From Oceaniglobus ichthyenteri (GTDB taxonomy: Bacteria > Pseudomonadota > Alphaproteobacteria > Rhodobacterales > Rhodobacteraceae), in contig NZ_QAGK01000003.1 in the NCBI RefSeq assembly GCF_003057885.1, positions 1-64,000 on the forward strand: a stretch of 64,000 bases of DNA, read 5' to 3'. Within the stretch, counting starts at the first letter, position 1. Every line of letters begins with the position of its first letter. The notes under the pieces were generated by a model that did no database searches, was not told where the DNA came from, and worked only from the letters and a program-made list of their open reading frames with translations. Position numbers and translations under genes: made by a program. Positions 3,655-61,643 of this stretch are shown piece after piece.

Positions 3655-4610
3655 GGCTGCACCAATCTGTCACCCGTGGACAGCCCGGCCAGGATTTCAA
3701 CACCATCAGGGCTTTCCTGCCCCAGCAGAACAACCACATCGCGCGGTCCGGTTTGGGTATCGAGCACGACAAAATCATTGCCAAACCGGGTGGTGACATA
3801 GCTGCGCGGAATGACGATTACCTCGCGTTTATCCACGGTGACATGCACCCGCACCCGTTCGCCGACAAAGAAACTGCCCAGCCCTTCGACCTCGGCATCG
3901 GCGACAATGCGGCCATTGGTGATCAGCGGATAAACCTGTCGGATCACACCAGTTGACGCCACATCGCCGCCCAGCGCGGCACCTGCCACCTCGATCGTGT
4001 CGCCCTCGGCGATGGATCGGGCGTGGCGTTCGGGCAGGTTGAGGCGCAACAGGTAATGATCCGATGCAATGGTGGCCACCTGCTCTCCGGGCAACACGAC
4101 GCTGCCTGACGGGCTTTGCACGTTCAGCACCCGGCCCGCGGCGGGGGCCAGAACCTCGCCCTCGCGCTCTTGTTGCAACAGCACATCGCGCGATTGATTG
4201 GCCGAGGCAACGCGCCCCTCAAGAACCGCCACAGCGGTTTGCGCCTGATCCACCCGGGTCTGGGCGATGATCCCGCGCGACAACAGGCTGACGGCGCGTT
4301 CCAGATCATCGCGCGCCTGGGCAAGCTCGGCCTCAAGCGCGGCGGCCTGCGATGTGGCGGCGGCGATTTGCGGCGCCATCTGTTCGTTGACGACCAGCGC
4401 CAGAACATCGCCCGCCGCGACCATGTCGCCCTCATCCACCAACAAATCCGCGACGGTGCCCCCCACCCGCGTGCGCGCGATCAGGGTGTCCACACTTTCT
4501 ACCGTTGCGAACACCGCCTTGCGATCGGCCACAAACGTGGTTGTGATCGCGTGGGTCTGGGCAAAGGCAGGCGTGGCGAGGATGAGAAACAACAGGAAAG
4601 TCTTATACAT
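3651..4610 (-). CDS. RND periplasmic adaptor (membrane fusion protein)
   Basis: This 319-residue protein carries a signal peptide (MYKTFLLFLILATPAFAQ), a biotinyl-lipoyl-like half motif, an alpha-helical hairpin rich in Ala/Gln/Asp (about residues 85-150) and beta-barrel segments, the standard HlyD/AcrA adaptor order. It would link the inner-membrane RND pump to an outer-membrane channel. The ATG at 4610 is preferred because it begins the signal peptide; the longer open frame starting at 4742 would run through the operator region. It overlaps the permease start by 4 bases. The promoter must lie in the 107-base gap shared with the divergent ArsR gene. Confidence 0.9.
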   Translation of the reverse strand: MYKTFLLFLILATPAFAQTHAITTTFVADRKAVFATVESVDTLIARTRVGGTVADLLVDEGDMVAAGDVLALVVNEQMAPQIAAATSQAAALEAELAQARDDLERAVSLLSRGIIAQTRVDQAQTAVAVLEGRVASANQSRDVLLQQEREGEVLAPAAGRVLNVQSPSGSVVLPGEQVATIASDHYLLRLNLPERHARSIAEGDTIEVAGAALGGDVASTGVIRQVYPLITNGRIVADAEVEGLGSFFVGERVRVHVTVDKREVIVIPRSYVTTRFGNDFVVLDTQTGPRDVVVLLGQESPDGVEILAGLSTGDRLVQP

Positions 4611-4659
4611 GGCGGCGCTTTCGGGTCTGACAGATTTGTGAGCTTTGTTGACTTTCATA

Positions 4660-54883: not shown

Positions 54884-55978
54884 TCAGGCGCCGTGCCTCT
54901 GCAATTTGCCAAAATACAATGTGTCGCGATGGCTGCCCAGCAGCGGTTGTCGCGGGAGTTTCATCAAATCACGCGGTGTGACCGTGGCGGCGCGCAGGGC
55001 CTCAACCGGGGAAATCCCCACATCGGCCACCAGCCGCGCGACCGAAGTTTTCAGATCGATATGCGCGCCCGCAAGCGCGCCATTGGCATTGACCAGTTTG
55101 CCATTTTCCACGCGAATGGTTTCACCGTAAAGTTCAAACCGGTCCGGCCCGGCAATGGTGGACATCGCATCAGATACCAACACCATGCGCCCCGCACAGG
55201 GGCGGGCGCGAAACGCCAGCGCGACCATGCGATCATCCACATGATGACCATCGGCAATGATGCCGCAATAGGCGGTGCTGTTGATCGCCACGCCCGCAAT
55301 ACCGGGGGCGCGCGATGTCATCGGCGGCATCGCGTTGAACAGATGGGTGAACCCCCGCAATCCTTCGGCAAGGGCCTGTTCGCCTTGCAGCGCTGTGGCG
55401 GTGGTGTGCCCTGCGGCCACGGTCACGCCCATCCGGGTCAGATCGGCGATGGTGCCGGGGGGCAGTGTTTCGGGCGCGACGGTGAACAGCACCGGCAGAT
55501 CATGTTCGCGCAACCGCGCCAGCAGTGCGCGGGTCTGCGCATCGAACGGGCGAATGCGGGCCGGATCGTGGGTGCCTTTGCGCGCCACATTGATGTGCGG
55601 GCCTTCGATGTGAATACCCAGAACGCCGCCGCGTCCGTGTTCGGCCAACACCGCATCGGCGGCGCGTTCGGTAACATCGGGGTGGTCGGTGATCACCGTG
55701 GGCAGTACGAACGCGGTCCCGACCGAGCGGTGGGCGGCGGCAATGGCGCGCACCCCTTGGGGCGTGGGATCGTTGTTCAACATCACCCCGCCGCCGCCGT
55801 TCACCTGAACGTCAAACAGCCCGGGTGACAGAATTTCAGGCACCGGTTTGGGGGCAACTTCGGCGGGCAGGGCCGATATGTGGCGGCGCGCGACCAGGAT
55901 ATCGTTTTCAAACGCAACCGCCACGTCGCTCAGAAAGGTTTCGCCATCATACACCGCGCGCGGCAGAATCCATTGCAT
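54884..55978 (-). CDS. nagA: N-acetylglucosamine-6-phosphate deacetylase NagA
   Basis: The 364-residue amidohydrolase has the NagA blocks SPGLFDVQVNGGGGV, IEGPHIN (metal-binding Glu), AAGHTTAT (His), THLFNAMPP (His) and LVSDAMSTIA (catalytic Asp). It deacetylates GlcNAc-6-phosphate. The ATG at 55978 (MQWILPRAVYDGE) is preferred over the longer frame because the upstream part is not family-like. It is the second gene of a leftward pair with the ROK kinase; no nagB or transporter is in the window. Confidence 0.93.
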   Translation of the reverse strand: MQWILPRAVYDGETFLSDVAVAFENDILVARRHISALPAEVAPKPVPEILSPGLFDVQVNGGGGVMLNNDPTPQGVRAIAAAHRSVGTAFVLPTVITDHPDVTERAADAVLAEHGRGGVLGIHIEGPHINVARKGTHDPARIRPFDAQTRALLARLREHDLPVLFTVAPETLPPGTIADLTRMGVTVAAGHTTATALQGEQALAEGLRGFTHLFNAMPPMTSRAPGIAGVAINSTAYCGIIADGHHVDDRMVALAFRARPCAGRMVLVSDAMSTIAGPDRFELYGETIRVENGKLVNANGALAGAHIDLKTSVARLVADVGISPVEALRAATVTPRDLMKLPRQPLLGSHRDTLYFGKLQRHGA

Positions 55979-56129
55979 CAGTCGCGTCCTTTGGGAGGTG
56001 CGCGCCGCTGAATGGTCAGTCGTGTCATTGGTAATCCATCGCAAAAGGGGCGGCGTGTGCAGTGCATATCATCGGGCGAATGGGCGGCGAAGGCAACACG
56101 GGGGCGCAACGGTTTCTTCGCTTGCGGCC

Positions 56130-57071
56130 CTACATCCTGTTGTGAAGATCGCGCGCCAACAGTGCGGCACCCCGGCACCCGCTGCTGTCACCAAAGGCGG
56201 GTTTCAAAATTTCGGGTCGCCGCGCGCGGGGCAGGGCGGCGCGGTCTACCGCAGCGGCAAGATATGTATCAAGGTCGGGAATATTCGACAGGCCACCGCC
56301 CAGCACGATGCAATCGGGATCAACATGCAACATGATTGTATGCAGCAGTTCGCCCGCCAGATCGGCCCACACCGCCATCACCCGTTGATTGCCGGGATCA
56401 TCCAGATGCGCCCCGATACTGCGCGCGGTGCGTGGCGCGCCAATCAGCGCCGTGGCCAGGTTGGCCATGCCGGTGCCGGAAATCAGGGTTTCATAACAGC
56501 CAACCCGCCCACAGCCGCATGTCAATAACGGCAAATCATGGGTGCGGGCCAGCAGCGCAGAAATGCCGTAATGGCCAATTTCCCCCGCCATTCCGTTCAA
56601 CCCCGGCACAAGGCGGCCATCCTGGCACAGGCCGCCCCCCACCCCGGTGCCCAAGGCCAGGCCAAACACCCGCCGGTGATTGCGCGCCGCGCCGCCACAG
56701 GATTCCGACAGGGTGAAACACTGACTGTCATTGGCGGCCACAACCGTACCGCCCACGCGGTCGCGCAGATCGGGCGATAACCTTTGCCCATTGGCCGACA
56801 GGTTGGCGGCAAAGGTCACGCCGGTTTGCGCATCGACCAGCCCGGGCATTCCGATACCCACTGGCAAATCTTCGCACCCCGCCTGGCGGCGCAGCCACTG
56901 CACCTCGTGTTCGAGGGCAGCCAGAAGTGCGCCGTAGGACGCGTTAGGTGTTGGCGTGCGCCGCGCTGTGATCGCCAAAAGATCGGCCCCAAACAACGTC
57001 GCCTCGATCTTGGTGCCGCCAAGGTCGATCCCGGCGGCAACCGGGCGGTGGGGGGGGGATGCGTGGGCCAT
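56130..57071 (-). CDS. ROK-family sugar kinase (N-acetylglucosamine kinase-like)
   Basis: The 313-residue protein begins near AAGIDLGGTKIEATLFG (ATP-binding DLGGTK), has VGIGMPGLVD, AANDSQCF, GLALGTGVGGGL and the zinc-site block ELGH-like GEIGHYGI with the CGCGRVGCYET zinc finger typical of bacterial NagK. Together with nagA it makes and deacetylates GlcNAc-6-phosphate. The ATG at 57071 starts at MAHASPP; the frame upstream to 57275 crosses the riboswitch area and is rejected. A 151-base gap follows to nagA. Confidence 0.88.
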   Translation of the reverse strand: MAHASPPHRPVAAGIDLGGTKIEATLFGADLLAITARRTPTPNASYGALLAALEHEVQWLRRQAGCEDLPVGIGMPGLVDAQTGVTFAANLSANGQRLSPDLRDRVGGTVVAANDSQCFTLSESCGGAARNHRRVFGLALGTGVGGGLCQDGRLVPGLNGMAGEIGHYGISALLARTHDLPLLTCGCGRVGCYETLISGTGMANLATALIGAPRTARSIGAHLDDPGNQRVMAVWADLAGELLHTIMLHVDPDCIVLGGGLSNIPDLDTYLAAAVDRAALPRARRPEILKPAFGDSSGCRGAALLARDLHNRM

Positions 57072-57220
57072 GATGATCCGGGCGATTTGCAGTAAAACCG
57101 CGACAGTGGACAAGAACCGGCAGCGCGGCAAGGGGGCGGATGTCTGTCGCGCCGCAATCGTGAAAGGCGCGGATAAGATGCTTGACACCACGGGGATCTT
57201 GGCCAGTATGTGGCCAAATT
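57072..57220. other. Divergent promoter region upstream of the TPP operon
   Basis: This 149-base stretch between nagK and the TPP riboswitch carries no gene. GGCCAGTATGTGGCC at 57201-57215 can form a small hairpin immediately before the aptamer. The riboswitch transcript must start in this region. Confidence 0.45.
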
Positions 57221-57310
57221 CAACCAGGGGTGCCCCGAGCGGGGCTGAGATGCGCAAGATGCGCGAACTCTTCACAGCTGATCCGGATAATGCCGGCGGA
57301 GCGAGGGAAA
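57221..57310 (+). ncRNA. TPP (THI-box) riboswitch
   Basis: Hallmarks are present in order: AGGGGTGCCC (57226-57235), GGGGCTGAGA (57241-57250), CTGATCCGGATAATGCCGG (57279-57297) and the closing GGAGCGAGGG (57298-57307). These are the conserved aptamer core motifs of the TPP riboswitch. The Shine-Dalgarno-like GAGGG of the following gene lies at the 3' edge, and the ATG (57314) starts within about 7 bases, so translational control is likely. It should reduce expression of the downstream genes when TPP is plentiful. Confidence 0.95.
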
Positions 57311-57313
57311 AAT

Positions 57314-57925
57314 ATGTTCATTGGCGCACAAGTGTCTCTTTATCCGATGGTGTCGGATTTTGTCCGGGTCATTCTTTCAGGGCTCAAGGGGATTGACCCC
57401 TACCGCGATCAGTTGCGCATCGAAACCGATGATGTTTCAACCCTGATGGTGGGCGCGCCCGAACCCCTGTTCGGCGCAATCCGCGATTTGTTTGCCGAGG
57501 CCGCGCGCGATCCGGCCCATGTGGCGATGCATGTCACGTTTTCGCGCGGCTGCCCGGGTGAACCCGATGACCCCAACTGCCGCTGTGATGTTTTGGCCAC
57601 GGCGCAAGACACGCCCTTGGCCCAACGTCAGCAGCAAGCCGCAGAGGCGGTGCGGGCCGCGCCGGTTCTGGGGGTCGAGATCGACGTGCAGTTTTCGCTG
57701 TATGTCATGGGCCAGGATCGGCACATGGACGAAATCTATGGCTGTATCGAGTTTCTGAAAGACTCGGGCACGTTTTTGAAATCGAAAAACTTCTGTACCC
57801 GGTTGCACGGCGATGCGGGGGCGGTGTTTGAAACGGTGCGCCAGGCGTTTCTGCGCTTTGGCCCAGCCCAAGGTCATGTGACGATTGATCTGACCGCCTC
57901 GGCCAACAGCCCCACCGCGCGCTAA
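57314..57925 (+). CDS. YkoF-family thiamine/HMP-binding protein
   Basis: The 203-residue protein starts MFIGAQVSLYPMVSDFVRVI and has two repeats of the YkoF ferredoxin-like fold (VSLYPM...FVRVI and VQFSLYVMGQDRHMDEIY), typical of the thiamine/HMP-binding YkoF family. YkoF binds the hydroxymethylpyrimidine part of thiamine. It is the first gene after the riboswitch, an arrangement seen for ykoF genes in other bacteria. The ATG at 57314 fits the SD at the aptamer end. Confidence 0.85.
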   Translation: MFIGAQVSLYPMVSDFVRVILSGLKGIDPYRDQLRIETDDVSTLMVGAPEPLFGAIRDLFAEAARDPAHVAMHVTFSRGCPGEPDDPNCRCDVLATAQDTPLAQRQQQAAEAVRAAPVLGVEIDVQFSLYVMGQDRHMDEIYGCIEFLKDSGTFLKSKNFCTRLHGDAGAVFETVRQAFLRFGPAQGHVTIDLTASANSPTAR

Positions 57926-57954
57926 ACCCCCACGTTTACCCAAGGGGTATTTTG

Positions 57955-58710
57955 ATGCTGGCGCGTATTTTGCCAACGCTGATCATTGCTGCGCTGCTTT
58001 TGGCCGCGTGGGAGGGATATTGCCATCTGATGGGGGTATCGCCGATGGTTTTGCCGCCGCCATCGGGGGTGATCCGGGCGCTGGTGGCGCACCGCGATGC
58101 AATAATCCCACATGGGGTGGCGACCCTGACTGTGGCCAGCATCGGCTTTGCCCTGTCGGTCAGTTTCGCCTGTCTCACCTCGGTGGCGTTGTATTTCACG
58201 CCTTGGGCGCAGCGCGGATTGATGCCGCTGTTTGTGGTCAGTCAGACGGTGCCTTTGATCGCGCTGGCACCGTTGATGATCCTGTGGTTCGGGTTTGGAT
58301 TGCTGCCCAAGGTGCTGTTGGTCATTCTGGTGACGTTTTTCCCAATGCTGCTGAGCCTGTTGTCGGCGTATCGCCAAACGCCGGGCGCTTTTGTTGATTT
58401 GCTGGCGTCGATGGGCGCCGGGCGCTGGGCGATTTTCTGGCGCGCCACGGTGCCGTCGGCGCGGGCGGCGTTTTTGGCGGGGCTGCGGATATCGGCGACC
58501 TATGCCATCGTGGCGACCATTTTTGCCGAATATGCCGGGGCGCGGCGCGGATTGGGCATTTATATCCTGTCGGCCAAGAATAATTTTCGCGCCGATCTGG
58601 TGTTGGCGGCGGTGGTGATATCGGCGCTGTTGACCCTGACGTTGCTGGGCGCGATCCGCCTTTTTGACCGGCTGACCGCCAAAGGGCCAGAGGTGCGCCG
58701 GGATGCTTGA
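57955..58710 (+). CDS. ABC transporter permease, thiamine-precursor type (ThiX-like)
   Basis: The 251-residue membrane protein has six predicted helices, a SsuC/TauC-type core (VVSQTVPLIALAPLMILWFG) and the EAA loop SMGAGRWAIFWRATVPSARAA. In the TPP context it is the permease of a ThiXYZ-like importer of thiamine or pyrimidine precursors. The ATG at 57955 has AAGGGG upstream. The ATPase start overlaps by 8 bases. Confidence 0.88.
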   Translation: MLARILPTLIIAALLLAAWEGYCHLMGVSPMVLPPPSGVIRALVAHRDAIIPHGVATLTVASIGFALSVSFACLTSVALYFTPWAQRGLMPLFVVSQTVPLIALAPLMILWFGFGLLPKVLLVILVTFFPMLLSLLSAYRQTPGAFVDLLASMGAGRWAIFWRATVPSARAAFLAGLRISATYAIVATIFAEYAGARRGLGIYILSAKNNFRADLVLAAVVISALLTLTLLGAIRLFDRLTAKGPEVRRDA

Positions 58711-59446
58711 AATTCGCGGTCTGACCATTGCGGCGCCGGGGCGCGATCTGGTGCGCGATCTGTCGCTGTGTTTGCCCGGCACCGGGATCACCGCGCTGAT
58801 CGGGGCGTCGGGTTGTGGCAAAACATCGGTTTTGAAATGGCTGTCGGGGATTTTGCCGGCAGGACTGGTCGCGCGCGGGCAGATCATGCTTGATGGTCAG
58901 GCCATCACCCCGCCCCATCCCGCACTCAGTTATCAGCCGCAAAGCGATGCCTTGTTTCCTTGGCTGACGATCATGGAAAACGCGATTCTTGGGCTGGAGA
59001 TGTCGGGCCTGTCGCGCCGCGCGGCCCGGGCAAAGGTGGCGCCATTGTTTGCGCCCTTTGGCCTTTCGGGGTGCGAGGCGCTGTTTCCGGCGCAATTGTC
59101 AGGCGGAATGCGCCAGCGCGCCGCGTTCCTGCGCACCATTGTGCAAGACAGCCGGTTTGTTCTGTTGGACGAACCGTTTTCGGCGCTGGACGCTGTCACG
59201 CACATGCGGATGCAGGATTGGCTGTTGGCCCGCCTCGCCGACCGCCCGCGCGGTGTTTTGCTGGTCACCCATGATCTGCACGAGGCAACGTGCCTGGCCG
59301 ACCGCATTCTGGTGATGGCGGGCGGGCCGGGCCGGATCATTGCCGATATCCCCGTCACAACCCCACGCCCCGCGCGCAGCGAGGCGGCGCTGGCCGATCT
59401 GCGCGAAACCCTGAAATTCCATCTGTTAAAGGACACATCCCCATGA
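58703..59446 (+). CDS. ABC transporter ATPase, thiamine-precursor type (ThiZ-like)
   Basis: The 247-residue ATPase has Walker A GASGCGKTS, signature LSGGMRQRAAF, Walker B FVLLDEPFSALDAV and the switch HDLHEA. It is of the TauB/SsuB/ThiZ type. It overlaps the permease by 8 bases and the binding-protein gene by 4. Confidence 0.9.
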   Translation: MLEIRGLTIAAPGRDLVRDLSLCLPGTGITALIGASGCGKTSVLKWLSGILPAGLVARGQIMLDGQAITPPHPALSYQPQSDALFPWLTIMENAILGLEMSGLSRRAARAKVAPLFAPFGLSGCEALFPAQLSGGMRQRAAFLRTIVQDSRFVLLDEPFSALDAVTHMRMQDWLLARLADRPRGVLLVTHDLHEATCLADRILVMAGGPGRIIADIPVTTPRPARSEAALADLRETLKFHLLKDTSP

Positions 59447-60426
59447 TCAAGAACCTGTTTCTGGCCGCCTGTCTTTTGGCCCCTTTTGCCGCCCAATCCC
59501 AGGATGCCGATGTAACCATCGCGCTGGATTGGACATTGAACACCAACCACATCGGTCTGGTTGTGGCGCGCGACAAAGGGTTTTTCGCCGATGAGGGGCT
59601 GAACGTTGAACTTCTGCCCTATTCCGATACCAATTCGGCCGCTCTTTTGGCGGCTGGGGTGACCGATTTTGCCTATCTCACCTCGCTTGGATTTCTCAGC
59701 GCCAAGGCGGCGGGTGCCGATCTGGTGGCGCTGTGGGCCACGATGCAGCATGAAGCGGGGCGATTGGTGTATAACACCAACAATACCGAAATCACCCGCC
59801 CCGCCGATCTGTCGGGCAAAACCTATGCCGGATTCGGCAGCGCCTGGGAGGCGGCGTTGATCGGCACGATGATCGAAAACGATGGCGGCGATCCGGTGTG
59901 GGATACGGTCACCCTTGGCACCGGCGCCTATGAGGCATTGGCGACGGGTGCTGTGGATTTCACCCTTGAGGTCGCAACCTGGGAAGGGGTGAATGGCACG
60001 CTGTTGGGCCGCGAACAATCATCGTTTACCTATGCCGATTACGGCATTCCCGATCAGCAAAACGGCTATATCGGCACCCAAATGGCCACCTTGGCCGATG
60101 ATCCCGATCTGGTGGCCCGGTTCATGCGCGCCACACAGGCCGGATACACCTGGGCCGCCGATAACCCGGATGCCGCGGCGCAATTGCTGATCGCGGCGGG
60201 CGATTTCCCGAATCCCGCGTTGGTGCAAGGATCAATGCAGGCGATTGCCCAAGGTGGGTATTTGCGCGATGGTGATCGGCCCGTGGGCGGGATTGATGCC
60301 GACCGGTTTGCCGCCATGGCGCAATTTCTGTTTGACAGCGGCGTGTTGAAAGACGCGGGCGGCACGACCCTGAACTGGCCGGGCGATGTTTCAGGGTGGT
60401 ACAATCAGGACTGGCTGACCCAATGA
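59443..60426 (+). CDS. ABC transporter substrate-binding protein, NMT1/THI5-like (ThiY-like)
   Basis: The 327-residue exported protein (signal peptide MIKNLFLAACLLAPFAAQS) has the THI5/NMT1 pattern VTIALDWTLNTNHIGLVVAR and FFADEGLNVELLPYSD. Such proteins bind pyrimidine precursors such as formylaminopyrimidine or HMP. It overlaps the ATPase by 4 bases and the monooxygenase by 4. Confidence 0.9.
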   Translation: MIKNLFLAACLLAPFAAQSQDADVTIALDWTLNTNHIGLVVARDKGFFADEGLNVELLPYSDTNSAALLAAGVTDFAYLTSLGFLSAKAAGADLVALWATMQHEAGRLVYNTNNTEITRPADLSGKTYAGFGSAWEAALIGTMIENDGGDPVWDTVTLGTGAYEALATGAVDFTLEVATWEGVNGTLLGREQSSFTYADYGIPDQQNGYIGTQMATLADDPDLVARFMRATQAGYTWAADNPDAAAQLLIAAGDFPNPALVQGSMQAIAQGGYLRDGDRPVGGIDADRFAAMAQFLFDSGVLKDAGGTTLNWPGDVSGWYNQDWLTQ

Positions 60427-61643
60427 TCCTGAATGCCGTTGTTTTTGGCCACGGCAGCCACGAGGCGGCGTGGCGCGGCCCGGGGGTACAGGCCACCGCG
60501 CCATTGGAGTTGGCCCATTGGGTGGCCTGCGCCAAGGGGGCCGAGGCGGCGGGGTTTGATGGGTTGTTTCTGGGCGATATCCTGTGCCTGCAGGATCGCC
60601 CCGAACATCACCCGTCCGAGGCATTGGACCCGTTTCTGGTGCTGGCCGCTTTGGCGGCGGTGACCGAGCAGTTGACCCTGACCGGCACGGCCAGCACCAG
60701 TTTCAATCATCCCTGGCATCTGGCGCGGCGCATCCTGTCGTTGCACCACCTCAGCGGTGGGCGGGCCGGATGGAACATTGTCACCTCGTCCTATCCGCAA
60801 GAGGCGGCAAATTTCGGCTGGCCCGAAATGCCCCCCACCGCCGAACGCTATGCCCGCGCCGAAGATGTGGTTCAGGCGGTCAAGGCCCTGTGGTCGGGGT
60901 GGAAGGGTGTAAGCCGGATCGCCGACACATCCACCGGACGATATTTAAGCCACGCGCCAAAAGACGTAGGGCACACGGGCCGATACGGTGCGGTGGGCGG
61001 CGCCGTAAATCTGTCACCCGCGCCCTATGATTGGCCGCTCTTGGCCCAGGCGGGGTCATCGCCCGAAGGCATGGCGTTTGCCGCGCGCCATGCCGATCAG
61101 GTGTTTACCGTGCAATCCAATCTGGCGGACGCGCGGGCGTTTCGCCAGAGTGTTCGCAATCATGCCGCACAGGCAGGGCGCGATCCTGACACGGTCAAGG
61201 TGCTGCCGGGGTTGGTGCCGTTCGTGGGCGCAACGCGCGTGCAGGCCGAGGCAGAGCTGCAAAACCTGAGCGCGCGGATCGGGTTGGATCATGTCCTTAC
61301 CAAACTGGAACGGTTCATCGGTGCGCCGCTGGCCGGGCTTGACCCGGATCAACCAGTCCCGATTGGCCCCGACGATCTGACCGACAATCGGTTCAGCAAT
61401 TCGCGTGCGCGGCTTTTGTTGGCCGAGGCGCGGCAAGGCGGCCTGACCCTGCGCCAGTTGGCAGCACGCTTTGCCGCCGGGCGGGGGCATCTGTTGGTGG
61501 TGGGAACGGGGGCCGATGTAGCCCAGGTGATGCAGTCCTGGGTGTCTGGTGGCGCGGCAGATGGATTTAACATCATGGTGCCCGAACTACCCGATGGAAA
61601 CGCCCGTTTTGGCGCGGGCGTGATGCCGCATCTCAGCAGGTAA
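60423..61643 (+). CDS. FMN-dependent monooxygenase (NtaA/SnaA/DszA type) in the TPP operon
   Basis: The 406-residue luciferase-like protein has FDGLFLGDILCLQDRPEHH, the conserved TGTASTSFNHPWHLARR, LSGGRAGWNIVTS and PLLAQAGSSPEGMAFAAR, typical of the NtaA/DmoA/DszA class of flavin monooxygenases. These use FMNH2 from a separate reductase to open or cleave nitrogen or sulfur compounds. It starts inside the binding-protein stop (ATGA) and is the last gene of a TPP-riboswitch operon. A role in oxidative salvage of a thiamine or pyrimidine/thiazole precursor is inferred; the substrate is not known. Confidence 0.87.
   Translation: MILNAVVFGHGSHEAAWRGPGVQATAPLELAHWVACAKGAEAAGFDGLFLGDILCLQDRPEHHPSEALDPFLVLAALAAVTEQLTLTGTASTSFNHPWHLARRILSLHHLSGGRAGWNIVTSSYPQEAANFGWPEMPPTAERYARAEDVVQAVKALWSGWKGVSRIADTSTGRYLSHAPKDVGHTGRYGAVGGAVNLSPAPYDWPLLAQAGSSPEGMAFAARHADQVFTVQSNLADARAFRQSVRNHAAQAGRDPDTVKVLPGLVPFVGATRVQAEAELQNLSARIGLDHVLTKLERFIGAPLAGLDPDQPVPIGPDDLTDNRFSNSRARLLLAEARQGGLTLRQLAARFAAGRGHLLVVGTGADVAQVMQSWVSGGAADGFNIMVPELPDGNARFGAGVMPHLSR

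Follow-up and report, generated by a model that had tools for sequence, protein, structure and literature searches.

A flavin-dependent monooxygenase gene in a TPP riboswitch-controlled thiamine uptake operon of Oceaniglobus ichthyenteri and other Alphaproteobacteria

The genome of Oceaniglobus ichthyenteri (assembly GCF_003057885.1, contig NZ_QAGK01000003.1, positions 1 to 64,000, + strand; these 64,000 nucleotides are referred to here as the window) contains a putative vitamin B1 (thiamine) uptake operon that is headed by a thiamine pyrophosphate (TPP) riboswitch and ends in a gene for a flavin mononucleotide (FMN)-dependent monooxygenase. What would an oxidative enzyme do among uptake genes for a vitamin? 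A first-pass annotation of this DNA had described a TPP riboswitch, YkoF and a full ATP-binding cassette (ABC) importer followed by an ATGA-overlapping monooxygenase, and this is borne out by Rfam, Pfam and NCBIfam searches and by the sequence, in which the binding-protein stop and the monooxygenase start share ATGA (60423-60426). We have little doubt that the association of the monooxygenase with a TPP-controlled transporter operon is real and conserved. As to its role, the best-supported reading, which we put forward tentatively, is that the monooxygenase frees thiamine, by oxidation, from a modified form of the vitamin that the cell has imported.

Conservation and history of the monooxygenase

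The monooxygenase has few close relatives. Among 394 sampled genomes of the window's family (E <= 1e-60) there are, besides that of O. ichthyenteri, two copies of at least ~65% identity (in genomes G386 and G301), the G301 copy being cut by a contig end. Two further relatives came from named genomes, Xinfangfangia pollutisoli (L034, genome G422; 73%) and Nitratireductor aestuarii (L035; 69%), which NCBI taxonomy places in the Paracoccaceae and the Phyllobacteriaceae, respectively, both of the Alphaproteobacteria. The family of N. aestuarii (297 genomes, E <= 1e-90) holds, besides its own, four copies at 52-53% (G459, G621, G644 and G708) and three at 41-46%. A C-terminal tail, present in the 20 other aligned homologues, is missing from each of the eight full-length clade members; the tree and alignment cover 28 of 56 places, with duplicates, partial copies and further distant homologues (33-41% identical) excluded.

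Seven of the eight clade members with a readable upstream side directly follow the binding-protein gene of a TPP operon, down to ~50% protein identity; the copy in L066 (G301), cut by the contig end, is excluded from this count. These linked loci (the window, L034, L035, L065, L081, L082 and L083) comprise four of clade A and three of clade B, and the linkage is kept in two families, the window's and that of N. aestuarii. In all seven the TPP aptamer exceeds the gathering score and the gene order is permease-ATPase-binding protein-monooxygenase, and in six ykoF follows the aptamer. The monooxygenase gene overlaps the binding-protein gene by 4 nucleotides in all four clade A loci and lies 19-20 nucleotides behind it in the three clade B loci; it is the last closely spaced gene, the next being on the opposite strand or at least ~140 nucleotides away. 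The placing of the monooxygenase under the same riboswitch as the importer, as described earlier, is more than chance, for it recurs at six other loci, one of which (L035) has no ykoF.

In that N. aestuarii operon a short open frame begins at an AUG near the aptamer end (L035 5232-5509), and ykoF sits elsewhere in the genome, behind its own sub-threshold TPP match of 52.1 bits. The single exception to the linkage is a clade B member of G708 (L080, 10863-12089), which lies among other genes with no TPP element, the ykoF-transporter locus of that genome being elsewhere (L180). Next to L080 is a set of ABC genes seemingly of the branched-chain amino acid type.

Searches with YkoF in the two families returned 76 matches (24 + 52), 41 of which carry this transporter; among the other 35, L168 and L173 are cut too short for the transporter to be judged. 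The monooxygenase is present in five of the 41 transporter loci found in this way (the window, G386, G459, G621 and G644). Since the transporter occurs without the enzyme in the remaining 36, the monooxygenase is an accessory to it. A TPP match stands right before ykoF in all 36 enzyme-free loci (33 above the cut-off and three at 51.7-53.5 bits, with positions matched by eye); the TPP counts use RF00059, and a regular expression for the aptamer was discarded because it missed loci that Rfam detects. No remnant of a monooxygenase gene was found in the enzyme-free transporter loci. The gene next to the transporter varies among them, as judged by eye, and close relatives share one (e.g. L169, L175 and L186); in G504 a TenA-like gene (L198 5673-6390, 28% identical) lies right behind the binding-protein gene, in the position of the monooxygenase.

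The seven linked loci are scattered over a tree of the three transporter proteins, with 6 changes versus a mean of 6.65 in shuffles; clade A of this tree has 15 loci with four carriers, and clade B has 28 loci with three. Monooxygenase and transporter distances correlate with an r of 0.98, a value as high being reached in 16 of 5040 permutations; this mostly reflects the A/B split, and within clade A r is 0.82. By parsimony the history of the gene takes 6 changes; with the gene already present at the A/B root, it takes one gain and 14 losses. The monooxygenase may have been present early and then lost, or it may have spread with the whole operon.

The importer and the thiamine genes of the carrier genomes

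The importer had been annotated as one for thiamine precursors, a wording that does not hold up well, since the binding protein is nearer to thiamin-bound 4nmy of C. difficile (profile E 1.3e-49) than to 3ix1, the ThiY that binds formylaminopyrimidine (FAMP; 3.2e-32). The reverse is seen with ThiY1 of the thiD-tenA operon in the same genome (1.3e-37 to 3ix1 and 2.2e-10 to 4nmy). Foldseek also places the operon protein nearer to the thiamin-bound structure, and VIA-align ties the two. With the SsuA sulfonate importer model TIGR01728 it scores 70.1 bits, under the cut-off of 163.5. The operon resembles the ThiXYZ system of B. halodurans in importer type and in its NMT1/ThiY family protein, here under a TPP element, but its binding protein is closer in sequence to 4nmy; O. 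ichthyenteri has a separate ThiY-TenA-ThiZ-ThiX set, whose ThiY matches the 3ix1 type. The operon has in common with YkoFEDC of B. subtilis a protein of the YkoF family among B1 uptake genes. In that system the partner components of YkoF are YkoEDC, whereas here YkoF is paired with a binding-protein-dependent ABC importer.

Two further TPP elements of the O. ichthyenteri genome precede thiBPQ (L038) and thiD-thiO-thiS-thiG-thiE-thiF-thiY-tenA-thiZ-thiX (L039); these genes were named by eye, and thiE, tenA and the ThiY type were also found by search. Judged by gene content, the cell is already equipped to import thiamine and to salvage pyrimidine, and the monooxygenase operon is a third system.

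ThiE, the enzyme that links the pyrimidine and thiazole halves of thiamine, scores above the cut-off in four of the nine genomes with a clade A or B monooxygenase, and no such ThiE was found in X. pollutisoli, G459, G644 and G708, nor in the incomplete G301. The first four have only a ThiE paralogue of 46-71 bits (cut-off 145.1), which lacks the sequence motifs typical of ThiE. In G459 and G644 the remaining TPP elements are followed by thiB, from which a thiamine pyrophosphokinase (TPK)-like gene (named by eye) diverges. X. pollutisoli has one TPP element before thiB and one of 46.4 bits before a thiD fragment of ~90 residues (L213 2119-2620, C68); fragment and sub-cut-off aptamer seem to be what is left of a decayed operon for thiamine biosynthesis. 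The monooxygenase operon of this genome is intact. Because neither thiC nor an above-cut-off ThiE was found in X. pollutisoli, G459 and G644, the hydroxymethylpyrimidine (HMP) or thiazole halves of thiamine are probably useless to them, thiD copies beyond the fragment not having been searched for. In carriers without a detectable ThiE, the product of the enzyme should be thiamine itself.

These observations bear on the substrate proposed in the first-pass annotation, a thiamine breakdown product or a pyrimidine/thiazole derivative whose use would involve an oxidative step. A half-molecule loses ground, as it could probably not be used by the three genomes just named. The gene lies in a TPP-controlled operon and is retained there in two families, and it is most naturally taken to help in the use of some imported compound related to B1; a breakdown product may still be the substrate if it keeps both rings. 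The argument from ThiE depends on one hidden Markov model and on genomes of unstated completeness.

A ThiE-like paralogue, again without the typical ThiE residues, also stands in O. ichthyenteri beside its true ThiE (L228 3423-4043, C35). Such paralogues (L224, L225, L226, L227, L228 and L229) occur in carriers with and without true ThiE, and there is a risk of their being wrongly annotated as thiamine phosphate synthase.

Two other clues were considered and set aside. thiC was found in none of the nine carriers, O. ichthyenteri included, and its loss is given little weight: thiC is present in only 51 of the 394 family genomes and in six of 26 non-carriers (p 0.30). TenA was considered as a partner on the strength of PF03070 matches in six of nine carriers versus six of 26 other transporter genomes (p 0.038), most of which proved PqqC-like; for both genes the comparison group was 26 of the 36 genomes that have the transporter without the enzyme. 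True tenA is found in G000 and G386 and a divergent one in G708, and among the non-carriers only G121 has a TenA-like gene. The corrected count of three of nine versus one of 26 (p 0.044, with kinship not corrected for) was given no weight. TenA counts from PF03070 (TENA_THI-4) alone are unsafe (L230, L231, L232-L238): the matches of carriers G423, G301 and G644 and the best match of G708 are PqqC-like, PqqC being recognized by eye from the neighbours in L230.

The proposed reaction and its alternatives

The assignment of the monooxygenase to the NtaA/DszA class agrees with its match to TIGR03860 (Table 1). Its predicted model (mean predicted local distance difference test score, pLDDT, 91.0) matches the family fold of CmoJ/YtnJ, BdsA, NtaA-type enzymes, DmoA, EmoA and RcaE, and the nearest folds are mostly FMN enzymes named for bond cleavage. 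CmoJ/YtnJ of B. subtilis is the top Foldseek match (6ask, E 3.9e-33) and shares first place among the sequence matches (1yw1, E 3.6e-69; 6ask, 3.7e-69); identity to CmoJ is ~33%, and chains of BdsA, EmoA and NtaA type match nearly as well. BdsA/DszA and the nitrilotriacetate and EDTA monooxygenases, of the same family, cleave C-S or C-N bonds with FMNH2 and O2, on xenobiotic or chelator substrates in catabolic contexts. C-S cleaving members are named in PMC10863075. That text also outlines the CmoJ pathway: S-alkyl cysteine is acetylated and oxidised, after which CmoJ cleaves the C-S bond of the sulfoxide, the products being an aldehyde and a sulfenic acid; the scheme includes a flavin reductase. 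CmoJ is a salvage enzyme of the NtaA/DmoA family which recovers a metabolite from its substituted form; it differs in serving cysteine salvage, whereas the monooxygenase here lies in TPP-controlled thiamine uptake and belongs to a clade without the C-terminal tail. Cysteine-salvage partner genes are absent from the operon, which has only ykoF and the ABC importer besides, and the rest of the genome was not searched for them.

The riboswitch, the operon, the protein families, the conserved linkage and the carriers in which no above-cut-off ThiE came to light are seen in the sequences; the OFF direction of the switch, the two-ring substrate and the chemistry are inferred. When TPP is low, the riboswitch would free the ykoF start, and YkoF and the ThiXYZ-like ABC importer would bring in a thiamine-like compound that retains both rings. 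Using O2 and FMNH2 from a flavin reductase encoded elsewhere, the monooxygenase would break the C-S or C-N (or C-C) bond by which a substituent is held, and the thiamine thereby freed would be converted by kinases to TPP. An S-substituted open-ring thiamine is a plausible candidate, by analogy with the freeing of cysteine from S-alkyl cysteine by CmoJ, because the thiamine ring can open to a thiol (PMC11681303). C2-adducts such as hydroxyethylthiamine are also candidates.

If such a step yields usable thiamine, the B1 cycle would have one more class of substrate, and the large NtaA/DmoA family would gain a member in vitamin salvage. To our knowledge the B1 salvage routes already described are hydrolytic and act on half-molecules. 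TenA/YlmB pyrimidine salvage is hydrolytic rather than oxidative, and differs further in that it works on half-molecules needing ThiE. Like the step proposed here, it recovers B1 degradation products (PMC10470507). According to PMC10881298, most aquatic bacterioplankton cannot make B1 and rely on an outside source. The broader proposal, that a TPP-controlled FMN monooxygenase regenerates intact thiamine from modified thiamine in the environment and is the founding oxygen-dependent thiamine recovery enzyme, would give cells unable to join the two halves a B1 pool closed to others; it is more doubtful than the release of thiamine as such.

The open-licence literature yielded no paper describing such a monooxygenase, in keeping with the earlier statement that no enzyme with this role is known; earlier notice is possible, a 2002 comparative-genomics paper on thiamin genes being the likeliest place for it. 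Nothing in that literature joins YkoF, thiamin and a monooxygenase, or luciferase-like (LLM-class) flavin enzymes and a TPP riboswitch, and there was nothing usable on oxidised or hydroxyethyl thiamine as nutrients. The monooxygenases in the available parts of PMC9870897 and PMC12236431 are unrelated to the operon enzyme.

The release of thiamine from a two-ring compound has to be weighed against four other explanations, the first of which, along the lines of the first-pass annotation, is pyrimidine salvage. The importer would then take up a 5-substituted aminopyrimidine, and the monooxygenase, doing by oxidation what TenA/YlmB does by hydrolysis, would cleave off the substituent and so supply ThiD and ThiE with HMP or the pyrimidine aldehyde. 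O. ichthyenteri has both thiD and thiE, L198 carries its TenA-like gene in the place of the monooxygenase, and YkoF and ThiXYZ are classed as B1/HMP and as pyrimidine or HMP transporters in PMC10881298 and PMC12236431. The absence of thiC from the carriers also fits, but thiC is equally missing from 343 of the 394 family genomes, so that its absence is not telling. With no above-cut-off ThiE in X. pollutisoli, G459 and G644, HMP would probably be unusable there, and the binding protein is closer in sequence to 4nmy than to 3ix1; we rank pyrimidine salvage second and consider it unlikely.

Detoxification, in which the monooxygenase would destroy antivitamins of the bacimethrin or methoxythiamin type entering through the thiamine importer, requires neither ThiE nor ThiC and would account for an optional, scattered accessory gene. 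Microcystis releases both compounds (PMC12345177). The sequence offers no pointer to this role, antivitamin or resistance genes not having been searched for, and we regard it as improbable.

We are a shade more sceptical of a hitch-hiking enzyme, one that only shares the transcript while its substrate is some unrelated compound of sulfur or nitrogen. The family is large, with homologues in 853 of 72,556 plasmid records (E <= 1e-40, all below 60% identical), and L080 of G708 is a clade member outside the operon. Against this stand the seven of eight members placed right behind the binding-protein gene of a TPP operon in two families, and the scanned stretches around non-clade homologues, mostly ~1.5 kb on each side, which contain no TPP aptamer.

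Oxidation of imported thiamine for its sulfur, nitrogen or carbon has a parallel in riboflavin lyase RcaE, which is of the same fold family and acts on a vitamin, but is highly improbable, as TPP riboswitch control and the presence of the gene in apparent thiamine auxotrophs argue against destroying thiamine. RcaE itself is a catabolic enzyme, 28-31% identical to the operon monooxygenase, and we know of no riboswitch-controlled importer operon that includes it.

Features of the operon and its surroundings

Table 1. Features of the monooxygenase operon in the window
Feature	Positions	Strand	Evidence
TPP riboswitch aptamer (THI element)	57216..57321	+	RF00059, 68.7 bits vs gathering 54.3
ykoF, thiamine/HMP-binding protein family, 203 aa	57314..57925	+	PF07615 113.6 bits (gathering 21); PDB YkoF 1s7h E 8.6e-26
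ABC importer permease, ThiX-like	57955..58710	+	BPD_transp_1 PF00528; under TauC, SsuC, SaoP model cut-offs
ABC importer ATPase, ThiZ-like	58703..59446	+	ABC_tran PF00005
Periplasmic binding protein, NMT1/ThiY family, thiamin-type	59443..60426	+	PF09084 168.8 bits (gathering 20.5); nearest solved sequence 4nmy
FMN-dependent NtaA/DmoA-family monooxygenase, 406 aa	60423..61643	+	Bac_luciferase PF00296; TIGR03860 393.3 bits vs cut-off 279.7

The riboswitch had been given a start at 57221; it does head the operon, but the aptamer begins five nucleotides earlier and reaches over the ykoF start codon. Because its 3' end spans both a purine-rich stretch and the AUG of ykoF, control of translation is suggested. 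TPP riboswitches are normally OFF switches, and by this usual behaviour TPP would switch the operon off. Plain folding of the aptamer stretch gave no excess stability (z 0.12), and terminator and promoter scans of the operon gave nothing usable.

Divergent from the operon, on the - strand of the window (54884-57071), are an N-acetylglucosamine-6-phosphate deacetylase-like gene and a ROK kinase gene. In L065 (G386) an FMN riboswitch on the opposite strand, ahead of a ribH-like gene (named by eye), is separated by ~180 bases from the operon's TPP riboswitch (4204-4336 and 4517-4628).

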